From Odontesthes bonariensis (taxonomy: Eukaryota > Chordata > Actinopteri > Atheriniformes > Atherinopsidae): a stretch of DNA of 64,000 nucleotides. The DNA lies in NCBI RefSeq assembly GCF_027942865.1, contig NC_134526.1, positions 5,479,784 through 5,543,783 on the forward strand. Reading direction: 5' to 3'. Numbering within the stretch: the first letter of the stretch is position 1; every line of letters starts with the position of its first letter. The notes beneath the pieces were generated by a model that made no database searches, had not been told where the DNA came from, and saw nothing but the letters and a program-made list of their open reading frames with translations. Shown here piece after piece: positions 16,115-60,626 of this stretch. The position numbers and the translations under genes were made by a program.

Positions 16115-17400
16115 CAGCAGTCAGCCATAACATTATGACCACCAGCTTAATACTGAGTGGGTCCTTTCAGACCCATCGAAGCACGGAAAACACTAGAGCT
16201 TTACAGGTATGCTGCGTTATCTGGCACCAAGATCCTTTACATCCCGTTGGTTGAGAGGCGGGGCCTCCACGGATCGGACCACCCCAAAGATGCTCGTTTG
16301 GACTGAGATCCCAACACTGTGCTCCCTCAACTATCACTGTAGTGTGGCGTTATGCTGCTGAGGAGGCGTTTCCATGGAGGGGGGAACATGGTCAGCAACA
16401 GCAGCCCTTTTCAGATAAAAACAGACGTCCTTGTTGAGCCCCCGCTGCTCCTCTTTGGTCTCTCCCACATCGGCCCCGCACCAACGTGTGCTCACACATG
16501 GCAGAGTCCGCTGTGGGAGAGGAAACGGGGAGAAAACGGGTGATGCTCTGACACAGACACCCGTTTCACCTCCGTTACTCAGAGGAATACCAGCGGCGGT
16601 TCAACTTTGACCCCTCCCCATGCCACCGATGCACGAAGGCGCATCAGTCGGAAAGAAATATGTGAAAAGGCCTGATGTTTCGGTGGGTGGTGCCTGGCGT
16701 GGAGAATCCATGAGAAAGGCAGGAGCGATGGTTTTCCATAAGCGCTACATCTCTTCTTCACACGTGCATCAGACCTTCACGACGTACCAGGAAGCATCAG
16801 ACCCGGCCAGCTCCGTGCGCTGCTCCGTGCGCTGCTCCGTGTGCTGCTCCGTGCTCCAGTTCTGACGCACACGTGCGCACTGCCGGCGCCTTTGGTGGCG
16901 GACACGGACCCGGTTGGGAAACCCTCAACGGCCTGCGGCTACGCAGCCCCAAACGCAGCAGACTGCGGTGCACGGTGTGTTCCGACACCTTCCTGTCGAA
17001 GCAAGCGTTAGCATCTTCAGCGATCTGAGCTACCGTGGCTCGTCTGTTGGACTGAACCACGTGGGCCAACCGCTGCTCCCCGCGCACGTCGATGAGCCTC
17101 GGGCGCCCGTGACCCTGTCGCCGGTTCACTGGTTTTCCTTCCTTGGACCACTTCTGGTAAGTCCTGACCACCGCGGACCGGGAACACCCCACAAGAGACG
17201 CGGTCACGGAGATGCTCAAACCCAGACGTCTGGCCATTACAATCCGGCCCTTGTCAAAATCCGTCAAATCTTCACGCTTTCCCATCTTTTCAGGTTCCGA
17301 CGCGTCGTACTCATGGACTCAACGTTTGTTTGCTGCCTGGTGCCAAAGTAACAAGATAGTGTTTTCACTTTACCCGTCAGTGGTCATAATATTATGGCTG
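16115..17400 (-). mobile_element. Tc1/mariner element in the eIF1 3' UTR
   Basis: TA duplications flank it (16113-16114, 17401-17402). Inverted ends contain 'cagccataa' and 'attatgaccac'; the left end carries an extra short 'cagtcag' repeat. The matching empty site is in copy B at 51198-51199. The internal transposase is decayed. Confidence 0.9.
16797..17285 (-). pseudogene. Tc1 transposase, N-terminal part, broken
   Basis: MGKREDLTDFDKGRIVMARR starts a Tc1 bipartite helix-turn-helix region with a GRPRL linker (after NRRQGH) and a second HTH ending near LRLGLRSRRPLRV. The frame then shifts into a low-complexity HGAAHGAAHGA run made by a short tandem repeat (16811-16853). The catalytic domain persists only as scattered, frameshifted remnants, so the gene is inactive. 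Confidence 0.8.
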
Positions 17401-23363: not shown

Positions 23364-23962
23364 ATGAGCTACGGTCGGCCTCCCCCAGCCATCGAAGGCA
23401 TGACTTCCCTCAAAGTGGACAACCTCACGTACCGAACTTCGCCGGAAACACTCAGACGTGTCTTTGAGAAGTATGGCCGGGTCGGGGACGTGTACATACC
23501 CCGAGACCGCTACACGAAAGAAAGCCGCGGCTTCGCGTTTGTTCGGTTCCACGACAAACACGACGCCGAAGACGCGATGGACGCCATGGACGGAGCGCTG
23601 CTGGATGGACGGGAGTTACGGGTCCAAACGGCCCGGTACGGCAGACCCCCGGATTCCCACGCCAGTGAGGGACGGAGAGGAGGAGGAGGATCTTCCCGCC
23701 GGCCTGGTGGCCATGGACGCCGAAGCCGAAGGTGAGATGAGTAGTCAAATGGCAACACTTAGTTTTACAGACCCCGCCACCAGACTCCATTTAATATTTT
23801 GGCTATTTAGTTAAGTGTTTGGCTCACTGACCAACACAGGTGATTCAAATATTTAAGTAAAGTACTTCCGGTAAAAAATTAGATTAATTGAAAAAAATCG
23901 GCTGTTGCTAAACAAATTTATTTTAACAAATTTCATCAAGATTTTTATTCTCTCCTTCAAAC

Positions 23963-26732: not shown

Positions 26733-27410
26733 TTCAGTCCAGAGGAATGAGTTTTTTCTTCATTAAGCCACTTAACTCTGAGCTGTGAACCATTCAGGCA
26801 GGAAAAAGGCTCCTAACTCAAGGGATGAACCAGTGTTGTGTCCACACAGAACAGACAACTGAGCAAAGAAGTTTTAAACTGGATCTTTAGGCACTTTGTT
26901 CCCAGCAGCCTGTCACAGAGACACATCATTTGTTCCCATTTCTTTAGCTGCATCTGTGAAAAACAGCTTCATAGTTTCAACTTTTTTCTACATTTACGTT
27001 AAAACTGCTTTCAGTTACCAAAAGAGTAAAATTAATATAAGAAATTCAGTTTAAAAAAAATCCTAATCCCAAAATAATGAACGTTATCACGTCTAAAAGT
27101 AGGAAAAAAACATCAACATCAAGAAAAAGTAAATAAGATTCATTTTAAAGCTTAAAAAAGGAATATAAGATATAATCTAATGACTAATTATGGAACAATT
27201 CATATAAATGAAATGATTAAACTGTTTTATGCCACCAGAAATGAATAATCTAGAAGCTCTTTGTGGGTTTTAGACTGGAATTAAGATTTGTTCCCATTTC
27301 TTTAGCTGCATGTGTGAAAAACAGCAAAGATAACACAGTGTGACAGACAGAAAACAGGATTTCTGCAGCAACAAGGTGATTCCCAAAGAGCTGTTAGCTG
27401 AAAACTTGGC
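26733..27410 (+). repeat. Segmental duplicate, copy 1 (partner 43375-44008)
   Basis: Same orientation and near-identical to 43375-44008 over blocks such as 'gcactttgttcccagcagcc', 'cacatcatttgttcccattt' and 'tagctgaaaacttggc'. Copy 1 carries about 78 bp absent from copy 2 near 26800-26878. It is composed partly of old Tc1 sequence. Confidence 0.85.
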
Positions 27411-28010
27411 ATATCTCAGCATGGTATGCAGTGTGTCCTTAAAACATTTGAGGAAACTGGACAAGTGGAGGACAGAAGAAGAAGTGTCAGGCCTAAAGAA
27501 CTATCTACAGCAGATGAACAGGATCTGAAAGTGATGTCCTTAAGAAAGAGGAAAACATCCAGCAAAGACCTGACACAGGAGCTGAGAGATGCATCTGGAC
27601 CTTCAGCTGATCCATCTGCTGTTGGCCCAAGCCTCATCAGAAATGGGCTCCATGGAAGGGTGGCTGTCAGGAAGCCGTTCTTAAGGAAGGGAAACAGGGA
27701 GAAAAGGCTGAGCTGTGCCAAAGGACACAAGAAGTGGGCTGAAAATCAGTGGCAGCAGGTCTGATGGAGGGATGAATCCTCCCCAGAGCCCGGAGCTCAA
27801 CATTACTGAAGCAGTGTGGGATCATGTTGGCAGAGAACGGAACAAAAGGCAGCCCACATCCAAAGAAGAGCTTTGGGATGTCCTTCAAGAAGCCTGGAGA
27901 ACTATTCCTGAAGACTCCTTAAAGAAAGGACAGAAAGCTCGTCTGAGAGGGTTCAGGCTGTGCTGGAGGAGAAAGGAGCTCAGAGCAGATATTCACTTTA
28001 AAACTGCTCA
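27340..28010 (+). pseudogene. Tc1 transposase with internal deletion
   Basis: Frames 27426-27764 and 27715-28017 encode Tc1 blocks LKTFEETGQVEDRRRSVRPK, LTQELRDASG, RNGLHGRVAVRKPFLRKGNR, then PPQSPELNITEAVWDHVGRE. The catalytic core between ENQWQQV and PPQSP is missing and the frame changes, so it is inactive. Confidence 0.8.
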
Positions 28011-41191: not shown

Positions 41192-41490
41192 GTTTATGTT
41201 CATGTTGGAACATGTTTCAGTGAATCTCTGCAGCTGTTACCATGGAAACATCTGCAGATATTCACCTTGAAGCTGCTCAGAACTGAACTAACTCTGGTTC
41301 TGCCTCAGATTCTGGGTTTATGTTCATGTTGGAACATGTTTCAGTGAATCTCTGCAGCTGTTACCATGGAAACATCTGCAGATATTCACTTTAAAGCTGC
41401 TCAGAACTGAACTAACTCTGGTTCTGACTCAGATTCTGGGTTTATGTTCATGTTGGAACATGTTTCAGTTCAGTTGTTTCCTGTTTTTAT
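41192..41490 (+). repeat. 124-bp tandem repeat, forward block
   Basis: Units start 'catgttggaacatgtttcag' at 41201, 41325 and 41449 (period 124 bp; the third is partial). The same unit occurs in reverse at 44995-45300 and as a fragment at 27985-28050. Confidence 0.9.
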
Positions 41491-42240
41491 GGAGGTCTGG
41501 ATCAGAACATCTGTTCAGTTCTCTCCAGTCACAGAATCTCTTCTTCTTGCCTTTGTCTCCACCTGCTGAACGAGTTTGACCTGCTGCAGAGAGACTGGAG
41601 AATAAAGAAAATCAGCTCAGGACCAACAACTCGGAGCTCGTTCTGCTGCTTTTTGAAAAGGTTTCATGAATTATTTTTAATAAAAAGAAACTTTCATCAG
41701 ATTTTAATGACTTGGTTAATCTACAGGAAATGAACCTGCAGCACTTTTGACTTTCGGTCCAAAATCTTTCTCACGTTGAACTGTTTTTAGGGATTTTTCT
41801 GTTGGTGGAAGTCGTTTCTTTGGGTTCTCTGACTGACGGACACAATCCTGCACAGACTCGCTGTTTACTGTGTAAAGAGGCTTTCAGTCTGTTCTTTAGT
41901 TAACAATAATGTCAAAATAAATTTCACCAAAATAAATGTTAAACCTGTTTAAACAAACAGATTTGAAATGAACCAACCTTTGTTTGGTCTTTTCGTGGGA
42001 TTTACTTCAGAAATGTGTTTTTATTTTAAACTTCTGAATGTTTGGAAGATCAGACGAATGTTTGACTTTAGTCTCATCGTTTTATTTTTCTAATTAAGCA
42101 GGAAATATCCGTCTGTTCGGTGTGAGTCCAAAATCATTTAACTCAAGATGGTTTTAATGGAATAAACGTGAAGTATTTCTGTACCTGAATTTTTAAAATA
42201 TCAGATATTTTCAGTTGGTGACGTATGGACGCGCTGACGT
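41491..42240. other. Upstream DNA of the Tc1-derived gene
   Basis: No ORF or element recognised. At 42223-42255 the 14-bp unit 'gacgtatggacgcg' is directly repeated just before the GC-rich promoter. Confidence 0.4.
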
Positions 42241-42406
42241 ATGGACGCGCTGGCGTCACTCTGAGGGCGGGGCCTGAAAGCTCTGGTTTCCGGGTCTGCG
42301 GTGTTTGTTGCCGTGTCGCTAAACGCCAGAAGCTCGGAACCTCATTCCAGCCGAAACAATTCAGGCAGCTCGTTCTTCACAGTGCAGCGAAAAGCCTCTG
42401 AACATT
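42241..42406 (+). promoter_or_regulatory. GC-rich promoter and noncoding exon 1 of the Tc1-derived gene
   Basis: CpG-rich sequence with a GC box ('gagggcggggcc', about 42262-42273) and no TATA box. It ends at a donor, CATTG|GTACGTGA (donor GT at 42408-42409). Contrasts with AT-rich surroundings. Confidence 0.55.
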
Positions 42407-44590
42407 GGTACGTGACTTTTAACCGAACTGAGCCGGGAGAGGTAAACGTTACAGACGGCTAAGTTACAAACACACACCCAGCTAACCGGTTATTCTTTAT
42501 TTATTTAATGGAGAGTCTTTGTCAGATATCATTCGGGCGAAAAGCGTCCCTGGAACAGGAGAAAGTGGTGATGGACACTTTAAAATGACAGAGTTGGCAG
42601 GCTGTGTAATAAAGCAAAATTTAACCCCTTAACGCCTGAATTTATATAGCTGTATATAAAAAAAAATGTTTTGTGTGTATTTTAGCCTTTAACTAGATGT
42701 TAGATAATGCTGAGATTATTAATTTCACTTTTGCACAAAAAATAAATAGAAATTTTGGTATGTTGCTTATTTGCAACAACAGGCATAATGGTCAATAATA
42801 AGATAACAACAACACAGTAATATAACAGTGAAAAAACAATGTTTTTTTATTCACCCTTTTTTTTTTTTTACATATTTATTTATGTAAAGGTTCCTAGGTC
42901 CGTAGTGAATATGGACTAACCGTCACTGGGGGAATAAAGATGCTATCTCAGCTGGTAGATTGAATCAAACGGTTTGTAGCACATATGCAACAATCGGCGT
43001 TAAGGGGTTAAGATGTGTAAAACAATCCGAAATGAGTGTGGCCTGCTCTGCCCGGGAGGTCAGCGGTTAAACGTGTGGTTTCCTGCAGCTTGTCAGCAGT
43101 AATTATTACGGGTTAAATGTGTGTGTTCTGCTCCTTTTTATCACCGCTTCATTGTTCTGTTCTGATGGACCCCAGCAGAGCTTTAACACAGTGTGGCGGT
43201 CCAGGGATCGCAGTACTTTTAAGTCCTGATCCAGTCCTCATTTCTTTATGTTTTCCTTTCAAACCTCCAGACTTTCCTGTAATCTTTAAGGTGGTGCTGA
43301 GCAATAGTTCTCCAGCTTTCTGAAAGTCTTTCTATTGGACATTTCCCCTCATCTTCAGCCCAGTCCTTGTACCTGAGCATCTTCAGAGGAATGTGTTTTT
43401 TCTTCATTAAGCCACTTAACTGTGAGCTGTGAACCATTCAGGCAGGATCTTTAGGCACTTTGTTCCCAGCAGCCTGTCACAGAGACACATCATTTGTTCC
43501 CATTTCTTTAGCCGCATCTGTGAAAAACAGCTTCATAGTTTCAACTTTTTTGTACATTTACGTTAAAACTGCTTTCAGTTACCAAAAGAGTCAAATTAAT
43601 ATAAGAAATTCAGTTTAAAAAAAATCCTAATCCCAAAATAATGAACGTTATCACGTCTAAAAGTAGAAAAGTAGGAAAAAAAACAGACAATAATAAGAAT
43701 TATATGTTATACAACATCAAGAAAAAGTAAATAAGATTCAACTTAAAGCTTAAAAAAGGAATATAAGATATAATCTAATGACTAATTATGGAACCATTAA
43801 TATAAATGAAATGATTAAACTGTTTTATGCCACCAGAAATGAATAATCTAGAAGCTCTTTGTGGGTTTTAGACTGGAATTAAGATTTGTTCCCATTTCTT
43901 TAGCTGCATGTGTGAAAAACAGCAAAGATAACACAGTGTGACAGACAGAAAACAGGATTTCTGCAGCAACAAGGTGATTCCCAAAGAGCTGTTAGCTGAA
44001 AACTTGGCTTTCAAGCTCTTGCTCAGCGCTGAATATCTTTTTTAAAAGTGCTGCTCCACTTCCTGGTGGTTTGTTGTGGTTGATGCTCAGATCACTGATT
44101 TATTCTTCCTCCTCAGAGCGAACCTGGTGGTGACGCCACAGCTATGGGCTCCTCCATCGAACTGAGCCGAGACCTGAAAATGAAGCTCATCGAAGCCTAC
44201 AAGGGCGGCAAGGGCTACAAGAAGATATCGAAGCGCTTTGGGTTTTCAATCTCCACCATACGGAACGTCATCAGGAAGTGGAAGTCGACGGGAACCGTGG
44301 AAGTCAAGACTAGATCAGGGAGACCGAGAAAGATTTCGGAGCAGACGGCGCACCTGCTGGGCCGGACGGCCTCGGAGAACCCCCACATGACCGCCAAGGA
44401 GCTGCAGGAGGGGCTGGCCGACGCGGGGGTGGTGGTGCACGCGTCCACCGTGCAGCGCTGCCTGAACAAGCAGGGCCTCCGGGGAAGAGTCCGCAGGAAG
44501 AATCAGCCGGAGGCGGCACCAGGGAGGACGGATCCTGAGTCTGGGACAGAAGAGTCTGCAGAAGTCGGTCGCCCTGGAAACGCCTGCTGA
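42290..44590 (+). CDS. Tc1-transposase-derived DNA-binding protein (148 aa), candidate domesticated gene
   Basis: Inferred two-exon gene. Noncoding exon 1 (about 42290-42407) joins exon 2 after a strong acceptor ending 44116 (pyrimidine-rich TTCTTCCTCCTCAG); the CDS is 44144-44590. Residues 8-50 form a first helix-turn-helix (LKMKLIEAYKGGKGYKKISK then FSISTIRNVIRKWK). SGRPRK (58-63) is the AT-hook-like linker typical of Tc1 transposases. Residues 66-118 form the second HTH (ENPHMTAKELQEG ... STVQRCLNKQGLRGRV). The DDE catalytic domain is absent; the protein ends in a short acidic/Pro-rich tail. The CDS is uninterrupted and GC-rich with C/G third positions, unlike the decayed AT-rich Tc1 copies nearby, and no Tc1 inverted ends flank it. 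A role as a sequence-specific DNA-binding factor is inference. The alternative is a truncated transposon by chance still open. Confidence 0.6.
42625..43007. mobile_element. TTAA MITE in intron 1 of the Tc1-derived gene
   Basis: TTAA at 42621-42624 and 43008-43011; inverted ends 'ccccttaacgcc' and 'ggcgttaagggg'. It shares subterminal 'gcatatttgcaac'-type sequence with the MITE at 13167. Confidence 0.85.
43246..43374 (-). mobile_element. Tc1 C-terminal fragment
   Basis: On the minus strand SWRTIAQHHLKDYRKVW is a Tc1 C-terminal block. Confidence 0.6.
43375..44008 (+). repeat. Segmental duplicate, copy 2 (partner 26733-27410)
   Basis: Same orientation as copy 1; carries a short insertion near 43665-43710 ('caataataagaattatatgt') absent from copy 1. 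It ends 108 bp before the coding exon at 44117. Confidence 0.85.
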
Positions 44591-46115
44591 TGGACACGGA
44601 GCTGCGTCTCCTGCATCACTTTAAGCTAAGAACACGAGGAATCCTGCTAAAAAGTCAGAACATGAGAACGGGATTTTAGGTTTGGGATATTTGATGGTCA
44701 GAACCCAGAGACCCGAACCACGTTCTGCAAATCAGGTCTGTTGGATGCAGAAATGGAACAAACTGTCTCACACCTGTGGTGGAGCTGCTGATGGTCCAAC
44801 ATCTCCAGCTGCACTTCCTGCCTTTTCTTTGGCTTTAAGTTTTCAAAGACAGATGAATTCTGACAGAATGGGACCAAACACACCAAACAGAACCAGAATC
44901 TGTGGCTCAGTGAGGTGGCTTCAGGTTGAACTCTGGCTTCATTTAAAGGAGCTTCACTTCTCACAGGATGTTTCAGCGCGGCAGCAAACAGCTGCAGAGA
45001 TTCACTGAAACATGTTCCAACATGAACCTAAACCCAGAATCTGAGTCAGAACCAGAGTTAGTTCAGTTCTGAGCAGCTTTAAAGTGAATATCTGCAGATG
45101 TTTCCATGGTAACAGCTGCAGAGATTCACTGAAACATGTTCCAACATGAACATAAACCCAGAATCTGAGGCAGAAGCAGAGTTAGTTCAGTTCTGAGCAG
45201 CTTTAAAGTGAATATCTGCAGATGTTTCCATGGTAACAGCTGCAGAGATTCACTGAAACATGTTCCAACATGAACATAAGCCCAGAACCAGAGTTCACTG
45301 TCAGCTGACCAATCACAGTCTATCATCAGTATTGATCAGCCATGTTCATAAAGCAGCAGAAGGTCTGATCGATTCATTCTGGTTCTGCTCTGAATGATCC
45401 GGATAAAGAACAAACAGATTCTAACAGTCAGAGTCTGAGTTCATTTTCAGCCGCTAAAATGTTTAAAAAAGGGGTTTTTTAGTTGTTTAAAGGTTTAAAT
45501 TCATCTTTAAAACACTTTATTAGATGAATCTGAGCTGCTCACTCATGTAATGAAGGAAATCTTTTATATTTCAGAGAGGATTGTGATGAATAAAGTCATA
45601 AATGTTGTTTTTAAATCTTTAAAAGAGGAAACTGTGGGTGTTTTGGACCTCAGAAACGTTCCCATCTCTGATAAAGAAGTGTCGATAGTGACTGTTAACG
45701 CTGAGCCTGTAATCCTGCTGCAGACGCCTGCTCAGCACCTTTCTGCCTCAGCCTTTAGTCCCTGCAAAGCTCCACCCTGCAGCTCCACCCTGACCTGAGG
45801 GAGCAGCAGCGGGACCCCTGCTGGTGGAAAGGTTGGTGCCTCTGCAGCAGCTAACCTCCATCAGGTGTTTCTGCTCTCTGGGTGGAGCTGAGTGTCAGAA
45901 GGTCCAGAACTCTGCAGCAGCACCAGCAGTTAAAGCTCCAACATCCCCAGAGAGATGAATTAAGACTGAAAGCAGATTTTTATGTTAAGTTATTTTTATA
46001 TTTTCATGTTTTTATATTTTTATGTTTTTATGTTTTTATGTTAAGTTATTTAAATAAAGATGAAGTTTGAACCTTTTTAATCTCTGATTAATGAAACCCT
46101 GCTGGGAATAAAATG
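44591..46115 (+). other. Probable 3' UTR of the Tc1-derived gene
   Basis: No conserved ORF. AATAAA signals at 46053-46058 and 46107-46112 are the first good candidates for the transcript end. It contains the reverse block of the 124-bp repeat. Confidence 0.35.
44995..45300 (-). repeat. 124-bp tandem repeat, reverse block
   Basis: About 2.4 units in reverse orientation ('ctgaaacatgttccaacatg'). With the forward block at 41192-41490 it brackets the Tc1-derived gene. Confidence 0.9.
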
Positions 46116-46490: not shown

Positions 46491-47922
46491 GCCGCAGCTC
46501 AGCGCTGCTGGGTGGAGGTGGTGGAGGCTTTGAGGACATAGAACTAAACTTATCTGCATGTTTTGTGACTTTGTTCAGTAAAAACTTTGCCTGAACAGTC
46601 GGAGCTCTGCTGTTCCGTAACTCTGCTGCTTCATGAAATAAAACTGGATCCAACATGTGAAAATCAGTTTAAGAGCTTCATTCAAACTGAAACCATCACA
46701 TCTGCTTAAATGACTGGTTTATAAAGTCAGGAGGTGATTATGATGACTTTATAATTCATTTTCCCCTCAAAATATATTCAAACTAAACTAAATCTGACTT
46801 GTTGCTTATCGGCCTTTTAAAAATGTTTCCTTGTCTGGATGTTTCCTAAACAAAGATGTTGCATCTGTCAGGAGATGTTTCCTAGTAATAAACTCAAAGC
46901 TCAGAAACATCTGGATGTTCTGCAGGTTTGGTTATTAGAGTGTCTGCATCCTGTGATGATGAACAACCAGTTTGAGCTCCTGAATGCAGCACCGAGGGCT
47001 TCAGAGAGTTTCAGTTCAGTTGTTTTTATTGTTCTATTTGCTGGTTTCAGCTAAATGTGCACCGTCAGCACAGCAGAGCCTTTCAGCCTTTCTCCTCTGA
47101 AGGAAACATCTGTTTGTCTACATGTGGAGATTTAAAGCGAAAGCTCTGATTACTGAACCCAGGGCCGAACAAAATCTCCTTTCTTTGTTCCGACAGTTCA
47201 GTTTTGTCTCGTTTTAACACCAAGTCTTTGTCCAGCGGGCCTCATGATTTAATCCAGAACTGAACCGCTAATGGTAAATAGATTTTATCTGGTAAATTAT
47301 CCCACTGATAATGCATTGATTGTTACCAAACTTCTGCCGTAGTACACATAGGCTCTTAACTCACAAAACGAGGCATTAGAAAGTTTGTAAGTTTACCGGG
47401 AGTTTATTTAAAAGAACACTTTTTAGATAGCAACTACACACTGCTGCTAACGCTACCGCTGCGTCGACGTCACTTCCGGTAACTCTCGGAATATGACTAA
47501 TTGCATTGCCTGCACACCAAAGGCTATGTCAACTTATGTTATCTGTCATCTGTATTTATAGTGTTGTTGTATGTGTGTTATGTAATCCTTTGCACTGTGT
47601 GTCTTGATGTCTTTTTGTTTGTATGGACCTTGAGTCTGAGTCTATAGCTTATTGAATCTTGACACATACCGCCTGCCGTAGTTCAAGAAGTTGCAACGCA
47701 CATGTTAAAACGCGAGGCGCTAGAGAGCAAATTCATTCGACTTTGCAAAATAAAATTACACCACTAGATGGGGGAAGAAATTACATAATGTCCCTTTAAA
47801 ACCCTCAGGGCACCAAACTGCTTCATGTTGATGCAACCAGATTTAGTCATTCGTTGAGTCATCGCACAGAAACAAAACACCAAGGTGCTGACTCAGGAGA
47901 GTCCACTTAACAGCTGAAGCAG

Positions 47923-49216: not shown

Positions 49217-51066
49217 ATGTCCGCTATCCAGAACCTCAAAACTTTTGGTAAGTCGCTTTTGATCGAAATTAACCGCAACGTAAAGGTGGGGGAAGGGCGA
49301 GCTAACGAAGCTAATGCTAATCTTTAAAAAATACGTCGAGGTTTGTTGTCGTTTTGAGTTAAATTGAGTACTTGTTACAGCATTGACTCGTTTAATCGAC
49401 TTTGAGTGGAAGCGAATGTTTTCGTTTGAATTACTGTGAGTTCGGACTTGGTGATTTTTAGTCGTCTTTGTGGGTCTCTGTTCAGGTTTAAACATCCGCC
49501 ATTAGGCCCAAAGGCTGCTAACGTTACTGCCGCTGTAGCTTATTTTTTAGGTCTGCTACTTCTTTAGGAAGTACGTTGGTTCTGGTGACTGAAACAAAGC
49601 CACACGGGCCGTTTGTGTAACGTTATTTAACGGCAGGGTTTATTTAGGTGAATTTTCTGGGTCATGGCTCCGCTGTTTGCTCCGTATTTTGCTGAGTAAA
49701 GGTGCTGCTCAGCAGCGGCTAACTAGCGCTGCCAGCCGGGGCTGTTGAGCCGTATATTTAATTCAATTCATTTTTATTTATATAGCGCCAAATACAACAA
49801 ATGTCATCTCAAGGCACTTGGATAATAAAGTTCAATTCAAGCCAATTGGAATTCAATTAATTGTAATCATAATTATTCATAAAATAATCCAATTCGTTCA
49901 TATAGAGCCAATTCAAAAACAATTTCCTAGCTAAGGAAACCAACAGATTGTACTGAAACTTTTTCTTTCGGTTCAATCTCTCGCCTGAGCGTGCCTGAGG
50001 CGACTGTGGAGAGAAACGACTCCATTTTAACAGGAAGAAACCTCTGGCAGAACCAGAACCAGTAAGGGTGGCCATCCGCCTCGACCAGCTGGGGTTTGAG
50101 AAGACAGAAAAGAGGGGAAAAACCCTGTAACACCATTCAAAGGATACCTGTTGGAACAGGGAAACGCCAGTTAATGACCACAATAATGTCACATGTACAT
50201 AAAGTGAGGAAAGGTGTGACAAATGAGGCCCCCCAGCAGTCTGGGCCTATAGCAGCTTAACTATGGGATGTTTCAGGATGGCACGAACGTCTGCGCAGTT
50301 GGTTTGAAATCTGACCCATTCTTATCAAAACAGTGCTGACTCGGCAGGGTTTATCAGCCAGAGGACGTGCTGAATCTGGCGGGCGGTCATGTCGCTTTTA
50401 TGTGACTGTATTCTCTTTTTCCTGCCCCTCACCGTGTTAACACGCTGTTGTCCCGTGTCCCTTCCAGACCCCTTTGCTGATGCAACTAAGGGTGATGACC
50501 GCCTCCCAGCCGGGACAGAGGAGTACATCCACATAAGAATCCAACAGCGGAACGGCAGGAAGACCCTCACCACTGTCCAGGGCATCTCTGCCAACTATGA
50601 CAAGAAGAAGCTAGTCAAGGCCTTCAAGAAAGTAAGAGCGAAGGGTCTGCCTGCTGCCAGCAGAACTTTCCCCCCCGATCACAGCCAGCAGCGTCTGTCT
50701 GAGCCGGAGGTTAACGACCTGTTCGCTGGCAGCCTGCCAGCTTTAACGCAGTGAAGATGCAGGGTGGTGTCTGGGTTTTCTGACTCAAATCTTTTTGGTT
50801 CCAACAGAAGTTCGCCTGCAATGGGACAGTGATCGAGCACCCAGAGTATGGTGAAGTGATCCAGCTCCAGGGAGACCAGCGCAAGAATATCTGCCAGTTC
50901 TTGATTGAGGTGAGCCGTTAAATTTATGTTTGTGGTTTATTTGGTTTATTTATGGTTTGTCTGTTCCTGCCGGCTTTCTTTTCTCAGCCGTTCTCAGTGA
51001 GCTCTTGTTTCCTCTCTGCAGATTGACCTGGCCAAGGAGGAGCAGCTCAAAGTCCACGGCTTTTAG
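49217..51066 (+). CDS. eif1: Translation initiation factor eIF1, copy B
   Basis: Exons 49217-49247, 50468-50631, 50808-50909 and 51022-51066 encode 113 residues beginning MSAIQNLKTF and ending VHGF, with the same intron positions as copy A. Exon 2 encodes the identical peptide and its DNA matches copy A essentially base for base except its last base (AAA|GT versus AAG|GT). Exon 3 differs at about three bases. Function as for eIF1: start-codon fidelity on the 40S subunit. The 3' UTR (to about 51475) has the intact TA where copy A holds the Tc1. A strong, TATA-containing promoter suggests this is the ancestral, fully expressed copy. Confidence 0.95.
49761..50275 (+). mobile_element. Dispersed repeat in intron 1 of eIF1 copy B
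   Basis: 'atttatatagcgccaaatac', 'ttcctagctaaggaaaccaa', 'actccattttaacaggaaga' and 'cttaactatgggatgtttca'. It is the fuller version of the insertion in copy A (18941-19171) and the same family as 33925-36080. Confidence 0.75.
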
Positions 51067-54521: not shown

Positions 54522-55157
54522 TTAAAAAAGTGTGTAAATGTTAAAAAAGTATAAATGAGTACACACTTGTGGCTTCTTTTTAATTTCTTCCAGCCACTGC
54601 TCTTTAGTTCGAGTTTCACCAGAGGGACAGTAAATTTGCCCTCTATATTGGTTGTGTCCTGTTGCAGCAATTCTGAACTGCCCGCATTTTTTGCACGTGT
54701 TGTGCAAAACTTTGCGGGTCAGTTTTCGGGGTGCTCTATTAGTGGAGCCTGCTATGGGAGCCGGAGCAGGGGCCAGAGGAGGAACCAAAACAGGAGCCAG
54801 AGCAGGAGCATGTGGAGGAGTGGCAGAGAACGTCCGAAAACTCTGTGTCTGTAGAGTAGTGGGGATAACACGAACCTGTGAGGCCACTGGAGCAATTGTC
54901 ACCTGAGGCCTTTTGGGTGGAGCAGGGAGAAGCTGCCACTGTCCTGGTGGATTTGTATCATCTGTAAATTTTAGCTTTCTTTTTAATTCGGCCTGTCCCA
55001 CAGTGTTAGGTGGTAAACTGTACATATGTGTTGGTTCTGAATGTGGTATGGCATAATGGGGACATATATTGGCGGGGAGAAGTGGGTCAGCAGCTACAGA
55101 AAACCGGCTAGGAAGTTTCAGCCCTTGTTGCACCACAGCCGTTTCCTGCCTTTTCAT
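54522..55157 (-). CDS. Unit 1 ORF: proline-rich protein with C-terminal Cys/His motif (211 aa)
   Basis: Open on the minus strand from ATG at 55157 to the stop at 54522. The middle is Pro/Ala-rich (ALAPVLVPPLAPAPAPIAGS). The C-terminal part holds CKKCGQFRIAATGH and YRGQIYCPSG, a possible small zinc-binding site, then KEQWLEEIKKK. I recognise this as resembling uncharacterised fish proteins but can give no function. The first A of the ATG is the end of an L2 insertion and the TG is from its target duplication. Upstream, minus-strand 55448-55393 (SYTTLVKWHNQRV) is in frame with the ORF if the L2 is ignored, so the older protein began further upstream. Whether the present ORF is translated is unknown. 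Confidence 0.55.
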   Translation of the reverse strand: MKRQETAVVQQGLKLPSRFSVAADPLLPANICPHYAIPHSEPTHMYSLPPNTVGQAELKRKLKFTDDTNPPGQWQLLPAPPKRPQVTIAPVASQVRVIPTTLQTQSFRTFSATPPHAPALAPVLVPPLAPAPAPIAGSTNRAPRKLTRKVLHNTCKKCGQFRIAATGHNQYRGQIYCPSGETRTKEQWLEEIKKKPQVCTHLYFFNIYTLF

Positions 55158-55392
55158 CAAATCAAAATCAAATCAAATTTATTTGTATAGCATATTTCAT
55201 GTACAAACAGTTCAAAGTGCTTTACATAAAATAAAAGCATTGCAGCAGGGAATGCAAGAAGCATTACAAATACAAAGAATATAAAGAGAAACAAATAAAA
55301 TCATTTAAATGAATTTAAAAACAAGCAAGAGTCTAGATAAGTTAAAAGATAGCGTGCAGATTTCATACATAGAAACATGAGAAAAGAAATGT
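55157..55392 (-). mobile_element. L2 3' end inside the unit 1 exon
   Basis: L2 tail in the gene's orientation, flanked by CTTTTCA (55150-55156 and 55393-55399). The identical insertion is in unit 2, so it came before the tandem duplication. Confidence 0.85.
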
Positions 55393-56712: not shown

Positions 56713-57348
56713 TTAAAAAAGTTTGTAAATGTTAAAAAAGTATAACTGAGTACACACTTGTGGCTTCTTTTTAATTTCTTCCAGCCACTGCTCTTTAGTT
56801 CGAGTTTCACCAGAGGGACAGTAAATTTGCCCTCTATATTGGTTGTGTCCTGTTGCAGCAATTCTGAACTGCCCGCATTTTTTGCACGTGTTGTGCAAAA
56901 CTTTGCGGGTCAGTTTTCGGGGTGCTCTATTAGTGGAGCCTGCTATGGGAGCCGGAGCAGGGGCCAGAGGAGGAACCAAAACAGGAGCCAGAGCAGGAGC
57001 ATGTGGAGGAGTGGCAGAGAACGTCCGAAAACTCTGTGTCTGTAGAGTAGTGGGGATAACACGAACCTGTGAGGCCACTGGAGCAATTGTCACCTGAGGC
57101 CTTTTGGGTGGAGCAGGGAGAAGCTGCCGCTGTCCTGGTGGATTTGTATCATCTGTAAATTTTAGCTTTCTTTTTAATTCGGCCTGTCCCACAGTGTTAG
57201 GTGGTAAACTGTACATATGTGTTGGTTCTGAATGTGGTATGGCATAATGGGGACATATATTGGCGGGGAGAAGTGGGTCAGCAGCTACAGAAAACCGGCT
57301 AGGAAGTTTCAGCCCTTGTTGCACCACAGCCGTTTCCTGCCTTTTCAT
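56713..57348 (-). CDS. Unit 2 ORF: second copy of the 211-aa Cys/His-motif protein
   Basis: Same structure as the unit 1 ORF and nearly the same sequence: for example GQRQLLP for GQWQLLP, and CTQLYFFNIYKLF for CTHLYFFNIYTLF at the end. The shared L2 insertion (57348-57583, flanked by CTTTTCA at 57341-57347 and 57584-57590) again makes the start codon. The CCAAT-rich part of its promoter is separated from TATA by the 2.6-kb hAT, so expression is likely changed relative to unit 1. No function assigned. Confidence 0.55.
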   Translation of the reverse strand: MKRQETAVVQQGLKLPSRFSVAADPLLPANICPHYAIPHSEPTHMYSLPPNTVGQAELKRKLKFTDDTNPPGQRQLLPAPPKRPQVTIAPVASQVRVIPTTLQTQSFRTFSATPPHAPALAPVLVPPLAPAPAPIAGSTNRAPRKLTRKVLHNTCKKCGQFRIAATGHNQYRGQIYCPSGETRTKEQWLEEIKKKPQVCTQLYFFNIYKLF

Positions 57349-57583
57349 CAAATCAAAATCAAATCAAATTTATTTGTATAGCACATTTCATGTACAAACA
57401 GTTCAAAGTGCTTTACATAAAATAAAAGCATTGCAGCAGGGAATGCAAGAAGCATTACAAATACAAAGAATATAAAGAGAAACAAATAAAATCATTTAAA
57501 TGAATTTAAAAACAAGCAAGAGTCTAGATAAGTTAAAAGATAGCGTGCAGATTTCATACATAGAAACATGAGAAAAGAAATGT
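57348..57583 (-). mobile_element. L2 3' end inside the unit 2 exon
   Basis: Same insertion and target duplication as in unit 1. Confidence 0.85.
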
Positions 57584-58023: not shown

Positions 58024-60626
58024 CATAGGTGTCAAACACAAGGCCCGCGGGCCACATCCGGCCCGGCTTGCAATTATATCCGGCCCGCGAGATCATTTTA
58101 TAATATTGTTACTAATGGCCCGGCAATATGAAGCGCTGGTAACACAATGAACTACAGATCCCATAATGCAGCGTTTCAGCTGCCTTGCAGAGCGCTTTTC
58201 GCGCCAATCAGGTCTAGTGTCTGTTGCTGCAAGTTATTGCGAAGCTAGCCCCTCATGATGCCGAAGAGAAAAGTTGATTCTGAAAACAGAGCCTTTCAAA
58301 ACCGATGGGAGGCTGAGTATATGTTTACTAACATTGCCGGTAAACCCATTTGTCTCATTTGTGGCGCTAACGTGGCTGTATTTAAAGAATTTAATCTAAG
58401 ACGGCACTATGAGACAAAACACAGGGATAACCTGAAAGACCTGAATGCAGAACAGAAGACACAGAAAGTAGAAGAGTTAAAAAAGAAGCTGACACTTCAG
58501 CAGACGTGTTTTACCCGTGCAAAATCACAAAGTGAAGCTGCTGTGAAAGCAAGTTTTATCGTGGCGAAGGAGATCGCTCAAGCAGCCCGGCCATTCACCG
58601 AGGGAGAATTTCTGAAGAGCTGCATGATCAAGGTGTGCGACGTCGTGTGTCCAGACAAAAAGCAGATGCTGGCAAATTTAAGCCTGAGTAGAAATACGGT
58701 TGCTGATCGAGTTTGTGAGATGGCCACTGATTTAAGAACACAGTTGAGTGAAAGAAGCAAAGACTTTATTGCATACTCTCTTGCTGTGGATGAAAGTACT
58801 GACATGACTGACACTGCACAGCAAGCCATCTTCATCCGTGGGGTGGACTCCAATTTGCGCGTTACAGAGGAAATATTGGACATTAAATCGATGCACGGGA
58901 CAACGACTGGAAAGGACATTTTTGAAAACGTACGTCAAAGTGTAACCGACATGAAACTGCCCTGGGACAAACTTATTGGACTTACAACTGATGGAGCACC
59001 GGCTATGTGCGGTGAAAAAAGTGGACTAGTGCGAAGGATGCGAGTAAAGATGCAGGAAGAGAACTGTACTGGTGAGTTAACAGCATATCACTGCATAATA
59101 CACCAGGAAGCACTATGTGGCAAAGTCCTGAAGATGGACCATGTAATGAGCACTGTAACGCAAACCGTAAACTTTATCCGAAGTAAAGGTTTAAATCACC
59201 GGCAATTTCAGTCCTTTATGCGGGAGATAGATTCAGAGTTTGCCGACATTCCTTATCATACAGAGGTGCGCTGGCTAAGTCGGGGAAAAGTTCTCAACAG
59301 ATTTTTTGAGCTCAGCAACGAAATCTGTCAGTTCATGGACAGTAAAGGAAAAGACTCCACCGTTTTGCGGGATGAAAAGTGGAAATGTGAGTTGGCGTTT
59401 CTGGCTGACATAACAGCTCATCTCAATGCCTTAAACCTCCAGCTCCAGGGATGTGACCGCATGATCACTGACATGTATGAAGCAGTGAAGGCATTTCAAG
59501 TGAAGCTGCTTTTATGGGAGACACAAATGCACCAGTGCAACTTACCCCACTTTCCCTGTTGCCAAGTAATGCTGAACCAAGTCGGCACAACGGTGTTCCC
59601 AAATACGCACTTTGCTGATAAACTGAGCGCACTGCGCATGGAATTCGCGCGGCGCTTTGGTGACTTTGAAAAGCAAAAAAAGCATTTCGAGTTGTTTCGC
59701 AACCCATTTGCCGTCGATGTGGAAACTGCACCTGTGCAGATTCAGATGGAGCTGATTGAGCTGCAGTGTAATGAGACACTAAAGGCAAAGTACGACACTG
59801 CAGGGCCCACAGAGTTTATTCACTCCATTCCCGCAGCAATGCCCCAGCTCCGTCTACATGCGGCTCGAACCTTGTGCATGTTTGGTAGCACATATCTGTG
59901 TGAGAAGCTGTTCTCAGTGATGAAGACAAACAAAACAGCACACAGGAGTCGTCTCACTGATGAGCACCTGCAGTCCATCCTGAGAGTCTCCACAACACGG
60001 GACCTCACGCCAAACCTAAACGAACTTGTTGCCAAAAAAAGATGTCAAGCATCCAGCTCTGATAAAATGGCATAAGAGCAAAGAAAACTGAATGTTTTGA
60101 TTTGTAATTTGTTATTGCTGAAAAGCACAAATTTAATTTACATTTCCAGGTTTTGCTTTGTTTTGCAGCATGTTCATATTTCTAACTTGTATAACTTTGA
60201 CAGGAGATATTTTTATGGAGAGTTAAATCATCTGGGATATTTAAAATTTAAGTTTTTTTATATAAAATGACATAAAAGCAAAGAAATGCAAATGTTTTGA
60301 TTTGTTATTTTAATGTTTACTAAAAGCACAAGCACTGTCACAATTTTTTTTTTTTTTCAGGCATTTTTTGCAGCATGTTCATATTTCTAACTTGTATAAA
60401 CTTGAGTGGATATATTTTTATGGAGAGCAAGATATTTTAAGTTATTTCAAGTTTAAGTTTATTTATTCCAGAATAGCATTCCTGTCTGTTTTTATTCATA
60501 TTTATGTTCAAATTGCGTTCAAACACTATGTTTTAGTGTGTTCAATAAATGTTTATTCTGTTCGGCCCGCGACCTAAAGTGTGTTTTGAATTTTGGCCCC
60601 CTGTGCAATTGAGTTTGACACCCCTG
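58024..60626 (+). mobile_element. Complete hAT transposon with exact target duplication
   Basis: Inverted ends 'cataggtgtcaaac' and 'gtttgacacccctg' (two mismatches). Exact CTCTAACC flanks at 58016-58023 and 60627-60634. Unit 1 has the unoccupied site at 55828-55835. The element holds one long intact transposase ORF. Confidence 0.95.
58255..60075 (+). CDS. hAT transposase, intact (606 aa)
   Basis: One uninterrupted ORF. A BED-type zinc finger lies near residues 33-56 (C33, C36, H51, H56: ICLICG ... LRRHYETKH). RNase-H-fold acidic positions are visible at D179 (SLAVDESTD) and D246 (LTTDGAPAM). The C-terminal hAT dimerisation region is present (LCEKLFSVMKTNKTAHRSRL then TDEHLQSILRV). The start MMPKRKVDSENRAFQNRWEA resembles the N-terminus of GTF2IRD2/ZBED-like hAT-derived proteins. 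It would excise and reinsert the element through the terminal repeats. The third catalytic acidic residue was not assigned by eye. Alternative start: the second Met. Confidence 0.93.
   Translation: MMPKRKVDSENRAFQNRWEAEYMFTNIAGKPICLICGANVAVFKEFNLRRHYETKHRDNLKDLNAEQKTQKVEELKKKLTLQQTCFTRAKSQSEAAVKASFIVAKEIAQAARPFTEGEFLKSCMIKVCDVVCPDKKQMLANLSLSRNTVADRVCEMATDLRTQLSERSKDFIAYSLAVDESTDMTDTAQQAIFIRGVDSNLRVTEEILDIKSMHGTTTGKDIFENVRQSVTDMKLPWDKLIGLTTDGAPAMCGEKSGLVRRMRVKMQEENCTGELTAYHCIIHQEALCGKVLKMDHVMSTVTQTVNFIRSKGLNHRQFQSFMREIDSEFADIPYHTEVRWLSRGKVLNRFFELSNEICQFMDSKGKDSTVLRDEKWKCELAFLADITAHLNALNLQLQGCDRMITDMYEAVKAFQVKLLLWETQMHQCNLPHFPCCQVMLNQVGTTVFPNTHFADKLSALRMEFARRFGDFEKQKKHFELFRNPFAVDVETAPVQIQMELIELQCNETLKAKYDTAGPTEFIHSIPAAMPQLRLHAARTLCMFGSTYLCEKLFSVMKTNKTAHRSRLTDEHLQSILRVSTTRDLTPNLNELVAKKRCQASSSDKMA

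Follow-up and report, generated by a model that had tools for sequence, protein, structure and literature searches.

Has the DNA-binding region of a Tc1 transposase become a gene of its host, or does it linger in the genome as debris? The question is raised by a stretch of 64,000 nucleotides from Odontesthes bonariensis (contig NC_134526.1; C26:5479784-5543783; hereafter the window), whose + strand carries at 44144-44590 an uninterrupted open reading frame (ORF) of 148 codons (148 aa and a stop). A sequence-only reading of the window had described this frame as both helix-turn-helix (HTH) domains of a Tc1 transposase joined by a GRPRK linker, with no DDE domain, and had proposed a host transcription-factor-like gene. 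Our analysis indicates that the candidate is probably an old domesticated fragment of a Tc1/Sleeping Beauty-type transposase. Old domestication is the best explanation because no close copy, transposon ends or catalytic part was found, the frame is open, key residues are conserved, GC content at third codon positions (GC3) is host-like, and a unique CpG-rich leader and a strong splice acceptor are in place. Transcription and splicing of such a gene, and the function, binding target and repressive effect of its protein, are inferred.

A DNA-binding frame and its missing parts

The domain content of the ORF excludes a chance origin. Residues 1-53 (44144-44302, + strand) match Pfam HTH_SB (E=2.2e-14) and residues 74-120 match HTH_Tnp_Tc3_2 (E=2.4e-12), both above the Pfam cut-off, and the solved PAI (6urs, 2m8e) and RED (5unk) subdomains of Sleeping Beauty align to the frame without gaps. 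The RED-like second HTH, together with a basic end, takes up residues 67-119 (44342-44500, + strand). Within the linker (residues 50-66), the AT-hook-like motif GRPRK falls, as counted on the translation, at residues 59-63 (44318-44332, + strand). The frame therefore has the two HTH subdomains and the AT-hook-like linker of a PAIRED-like Tc1 DNA-binding domain, as had been described. Homology to the transposase ends at residue 119, where the DNA-binding part of such an enzyme gives way to its catalytic part. Beyond it lies a short tail, residues 120-148 and the stop (44501-44590, + strand), which contains 6 acidic and 2 basic residues and is without transposase homology in the alignment to L003, the nearest full-length family in the genome, with a complete 340-aa transposase frame and 212-bp terminal inverted repeats (TIRs) at 93%.

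A single-sequence AlphaFold2 model of the protein, of low confidence (mean pLDDT 57.8), places helices at residues 9-21, 25-32, 36-49, 66-78, 84-93 and 100-109, plus a short one at 113-116. Those predicted at 66-78, 84-93 and 100-109 coincide with the helices of Sleeping Beauty RED published as 67-77, 84-93 and 100-109 (PMC7827188). When this low-confidence model was used in Foldseek, the paired domains of Pax6 (E=2e-4), Pax5, Pax8 and Prd came out on top, followed by Tc3 and SETMAR. Only Pax6 reached E<0.001, and the TM-scores of 0.24-0.41 and rmsd of 15-25 across these six matches make the relative placement of the two halves of the model unreliable. The ORF is 18-19% identical to Pax6, Pax5, Pax8 and Prd in the Foldseek alignments, Pfam PAX scores 15.8 bits against a cut-off of 22, so that the paired domain stays below the family threshold, and Pfam finds no homeodomain. 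At E up to 0.001 Pfam gives HTH-type families only, with no effector or host domain in the ORF.

The lack of a DDE domain was borne out. With an E threshold of 0.1, a six-frame Pfam scan of 36.0-51.0 kb detected none of the DDE families, and in a tblastn search of 42.0-47.0 kb the L003 transposase aligned through its residues 1-119 only, bar a chance match at E=6.7. The idea of a DDE remnant in another frame was rejected, as none turned up. As a positive control, HTH and DDE remnants were detected in a dead copy at 27.4-27.9 kb, where the DDE part at 27.8 kb was recovered both by Pfam (DDE_3, E=0.012) and by tblastn with L003 (E=3.8e-7). Nor were Tc1-like inverted ends found around the ORF among the 25 longest of 38 inverted pairs and the 25 longest of 79; the same approach recovered the TIRs of the window copy at 16.1-17.4 kb and those of L003. 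Between 43 and 46.5 kb nothing outside the ORF matches the L003 terminal repeat or the region of L032, a decayed relative described below, and the single L003 TIR match near the ORF is 17 bp long, at 47308 (E=0.13). Of the features of an autonomous Tc1/mariner element, neither the DDE/D catalytic domain nor TIRs with TA flanks were found at the ORF.

One pair of arms, 41192-41469 and 44987-45293, was considered as transposon ends and rejected, since these are arrays of a 124-bp-unit tandem repeat, at 41192-41469 and 44987-45287, a short piece of which also occurs near 28 kb. The repeat flanks the candidate gene on both sides in opposite orientation, at 99% identity over 276 bp.

The predicted promoter and leader

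The features that would make a host gene of this frame lie upstream of it, where the sequence-only reading had placed an acceptor 27 bp before the ATG and a CpG/GC-box region with a donor 1.7 kb further up; both are there. Splice sites were scored on the + strand of the window (4114 AG and 3537 GT sites) with an approximate weight matrix. By this measure the acceptor, with an exon start at 44117, ranks 22nd of the 4114 AG sites, and 44117-44143 (+ strand) would form the untranslated start of exon 2. The donor after 42407 stands at the 96th percentile of GT sites and an alternative after 42441 slightly higher, at the 97th. Together with the acceptor, the first of these predicts a 1.7-kb intron at 42408-44116 (+ strand), part of which (43384-44008) is a repeat also found at 26740-27410 (62/64 and 521/564 identical columns in BLAST). 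An internally deleted dead Tc1 copy (27375-27990, + strand) starts about where that second repeat ends.

We predict 42241-42407 (+ strand) to comprise a CpG-rich promoter region and a first exon without coding sequence. The CpG observed/expected ratio is 1.14-1.34, with a GC content of 0.39-0.52, in the 300-bp stretches that fill 42001-42500, and a GC box and ETS- and CRE-like motifs are visible. The upstream stretch is unique: 42200-42641 has one match in the genome, namely itself. No ATG occurs in 42245-42441 or 44117-44143; ATGs at 42225 and 42241 closely precede the first of these stretches, which means that transcription would have to start after about 42243 for the leader to be clean. 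The ATG of the ORF has G at both -3 and +4, and AATAAA signals follow the frame at 45589, 46053 and 46107.

It is also conceivable, though improbable in our estimate, that the CpG-rich stretch promotes another gene or a non-coding RNA and that the ORF lies outside its transcript. Promoter-like sequence is not directional, there are two alternative donors, and what may be a short terminal exon with coding sequence, seen by eye at 41556-41671 (+ strand), ends in a stop with AATAAA immediately 3' of it. Against this, the ORF is the only coding sequence that Pfam recognises between 42.4 and 50.5 kb (six frames, E up to 0.1). Of the genes recognised on the + strand, eIF1 (SUI1) is the next after the ORF, at about 50518-50634 and 50799-50909; a separate CpG-rich stretch at 48.8-49.9 kb could serve it.

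Relatives, composition and the age of the frame

Comparison with its relatives bears on whether the frame was domesticated long ago or survives by chance. A protein search of the 945-Mb genome gave 4365 first-look candidates, and the identities that follow refer to the 150 that were scored. With the ORF itself excluded, matches over the whole domain (residues 1-119 or more) reach at most 53% identity. The top identity of any match is 66% over 64 residues, to L032 (67% over ORF residues 1-63), a decayed element in which stops have arisen, one stretch is missing and the catalytic part has degenerated; its TIRs are at 83%. Among the scored matches there is no close copy, and by this measure the ORF is single-copy at the protein level. 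Scattered homologous copies with Tc1 ends and a DDE domain had been named as a result that would count against a host gene; such relatives do exist, but at no more than the identity just given for the whole domain, an outcome that speaks for the proposed gene. In 25 of the 29 other loci L002-L030 the frame continues into catalytic residues, as judged by eye, the four without such a continuation being L015-L018. Pieces of all six further relatives (L032-L037) continue in this way as well, whereas the candidate ORF does not. No relative was found in phage records, viral contigs or bacterial and archaeal genomes, and all 43 plasmid records lie below 60% identity, the 20 listed rows being annotated as IS630 transposase or unannotated.

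The composition of the ORF also sets it apart from these relatives. GC3 is 0.84 over codons 1-119, compared with 0.37-0.49 in all 29 loci L002-L030 and 0.38 in L032; three host-exon stretches of the window have 0.65-0.77, and the surroundings of the ORF are 36-43% GC. At 63 codons for the same amino acid, a third position that is A/T in L003 is G/C in the ORF 29 times and the reverse is seen 3 times. Of 21 residues invariant in all four Tc1 families compared, the ORF keeps 18. When each family was held out in turn, the residues invariant in the other three were matched by the ORF in 21/27, 23/28, 25/31 and 24/29 cases and by the held-out family in 21 each time. Against eight relatives the proportion of synonymous differences (pS) lies at 0.74-0.87, where it is saturated or nearly so, and that of nonsynonymous differences (pN) at 0.33-0.46; the values are pN 0.33 and pS 0.76 for L003, and pN 0.19 and pS 0.85 for the 63 codons shared with L032.

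The main rival to domestication holds that the ORF is a truncated relic of an ordinary Tc1 element, open in its HTH frame by chance and without host function, which we regard as rather unlikely. A number of observations nevertheless weigh against domestication, some of them by favouring this rival. The search scored 150 of 4365 candidates, and among so many candidates some chance survivors are to be expected. Length alone is only weakly unusual, because 6 of 500 dinucleotide-Markov sequences modelled on the same 600-bp stretch contained an ORF as long as 148 aa or longer on the + strand. An open HTH region is no proof of selection either, since an apparently dead Tc1 copy in the same window, at 16122-17400, keeps 162 codons open. 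The DDE domain of that 16-kb copy was missed both by the Pfam scan and by tblastn with L003 (no match there at E up to 0.01), which leaves the controls mixed. The CpG richness of 42001-42500 is weak evidence by itself, since an observed/expected ratio above 0.8 is found in many further stretches of the window and values up to 1.34 recur in other parts of it, so that the region does not stand out. High GC3 was set aside as proof of domestication, and is supportive rather than decisive, because a Tc1 family with high GC3 exists in this genome (L038, 0.71; L039, 0.77). Three of the 21 residues invariant in all families differ in the ORF (V16I, R70H and I103V). In its tail, which is without homology, GC3 is 0.52. 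The low pN and high pS of the ORF include its time as a transposon, from which a branch-specific dN/dS for the ORF proved inseparable. Dead L032, taken as the focal sequence, shows the same third-position excess as the ORF: differences at positions 1, 2 and 3 are 6/33, 4/50 and 10/24 for the ORF and 9/36, 5/51 and 13/27 for L032. Finally, the locus may be a lone recent insertion of a family that has no other surviving copy.

A relic is probably not recent, because no scored copy exceeds 66% identity; as the scored matches include no close copy, a recent truncated insertion was thought unlikely. If it were old and neutral, the frame should not have stayed intact: in simulation, codons 1-119 stay open in 0.8-6% of cases at 10% divergence and in at most 0.3% at 20%. 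Nor was a TIR or DDE remnant found at the ORF, in contrast to the TIRs at 16.1-17.4 kb (95%) and in L032 and the HTH and DDE remnants at 27.4-27.9 kb, and its high GC3 in GC-poorer surroundings, its strong acceptor and its unique CpG-rich leader are further points against the relic. The evidence favours domestication over recent truncated insertion.

Elsewhere in the window, the element at 16122-17400 lies on the - strand and has 21-bp TIRs at 95%; L039, on C21, is 81% identical to it and has a 407-aa open frame and high GC3. A CpG-rich exon with an RRM domain (23364-23729, + strand) is like that of an SR splicing factor. Two nearly identical 212-aa frames lie on the - strand at 54522-55160 and 56713-57351, the first of them without a Pfam match over 54522-55157. 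An open frame of 606 aa (58255-60075, + strand) contains a Spin-doc zinc finger and resembles hAT-derived zinc-finger genes.

Possible action of the protein and known parallels

If the ORF is indeed domesticated, its source would be a transposon of the Tc1/Sleeping Beauty type, perhaps from the family that left the dead relic L032, which lost its catalytic part and its ends. The DNA-binding region of this transposon would now serve as coding exon in a host gene of two exons, whose promoter and untranslated leader come from the CpG-rich start 1.7 kb further up. Such a gene would encode a nuclear protein of 148 residues that lacks catalysis and whose bipartite, paired-like DNA-binding domain consists of the PAI HTH, the AT-hook linker and the RED HTH. 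The PAI recognition helix and the linker together would contact a bipartite site, while RED perhaps dimerises. Such a protein should act by occupying DNA, because it has neither an effector domain nor catalysis, and it might repress or mark sites of the host genome that derive from old Tc1 ends, or compete with the transposases of related elements. Of the transcription-factor-like gene proposed earlier, the domestication part is supported, by the absence of a close copy among the scored matches and of a DDE domain or TIRs, the unique leader, the GC3 and the conserved residues. The transcription-factor part is supported by nothing that was found, as there is no effector domain and no known target. 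Repression by DNA occupancy is at least as likely as a transcription-factor role.

A special case of domestication is that the HTH-only protein binds the ends of L003-type elements and blocks their transposase, rather than regulating host genes. The candidate would then be a genome-encoded, dominant-negative inhibitor of transposition in a vertebrate, kept for silencing or blocking related Tc1 elements with complete transposase frames and encoded beside its living targets; we hold both the suppressor and this role to be unlikely. L003, the nearest family, does have a complete transposase frame and 212-bp TIRs. The linker and AT-hook of the ORF (residues 50-66) are identical to those of L003 at 14 of 17 positions (7, 7 and 10 of 17 in three other families), and PAI helix 3 at 9 of 14, slightly closer than in the other families (6, 6 and 7 of 14). 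Positions homologous to the DNA contacts of Sleeping Beauty, however, match L003 at 7 of 14 and L020 equally at 7 of 14, and RED helix 3 matches L003 at 5 of 10 and the other families at 4 of 10 each. Other transposon control, such as the piRNA pathway, could moreover make the protein dispensable. Binding to L003-type ends is possible only, because the linker and PAI helix 3 are closest to L003 but the contact positions do not single it out.

The domesticated gene proposed here can be set beside several known systems. It is like the Sleeping Beauty/Tc1-type DNA-binding domain (PAI, AT-hook and RED) in its ungapped homology to both subdomains, and differs from the corresponding transposases in having no DDE domain, no TIRs and no close copy found among the 150 scored matches. 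In the transposase capture reportedly described by Cosby et al. in 2021, host-transposase fusion genes are said to arise where an acceptor lies just 5' of the transposase ATG and a host promoter and leader lie upstream. The ORF is alike in its acceptor before the ATG and its upstream promoter and leader, but no host domain is fused to it and its predicted leader, with no ATG from 42245, is non-coding. In Caenorhabditis, F-box A2 genes have retained, under purifying selection, a Tc1/mariner HTH that is separate from the catalytic part, as are the HTH domains of the ORF, and the HTH stands alone in 3 of 44 HTH genes of C. elegans (PMC12062965). The Caenorhabditis HTH is, unlike that of the ORF, Mos1-like and mostly fused to F-box or FTH domains; it is reportedly not involved in transcriptional regulation (PMC12062965). 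In the literature searched, as judged from titles and the openings of abstracts, we recognised no HTH-only Tc1-derived gene in fish. Transposase DNA-binding domains as host proteins are already known, and the candidate is unusual in having no fused host domain.

Another known system of this kind is Pax, a transposase DNA-binding domain turned host protein (PMC8290160), and the paired domains of Pax proteins are the top Foldseek matches of our low-confidence model. If the gene is real, it repeats the step with which the Pax genes are thought to have begun, in which a Tc1 DNA-binding domain on its own came under the control of a host promoter, ahead of any fusion. Since the same genome also has a related family of Tc1 elements whose transposase frames are complete, target recognition by the domesticated domain and by its relatives would then be directly comparable.
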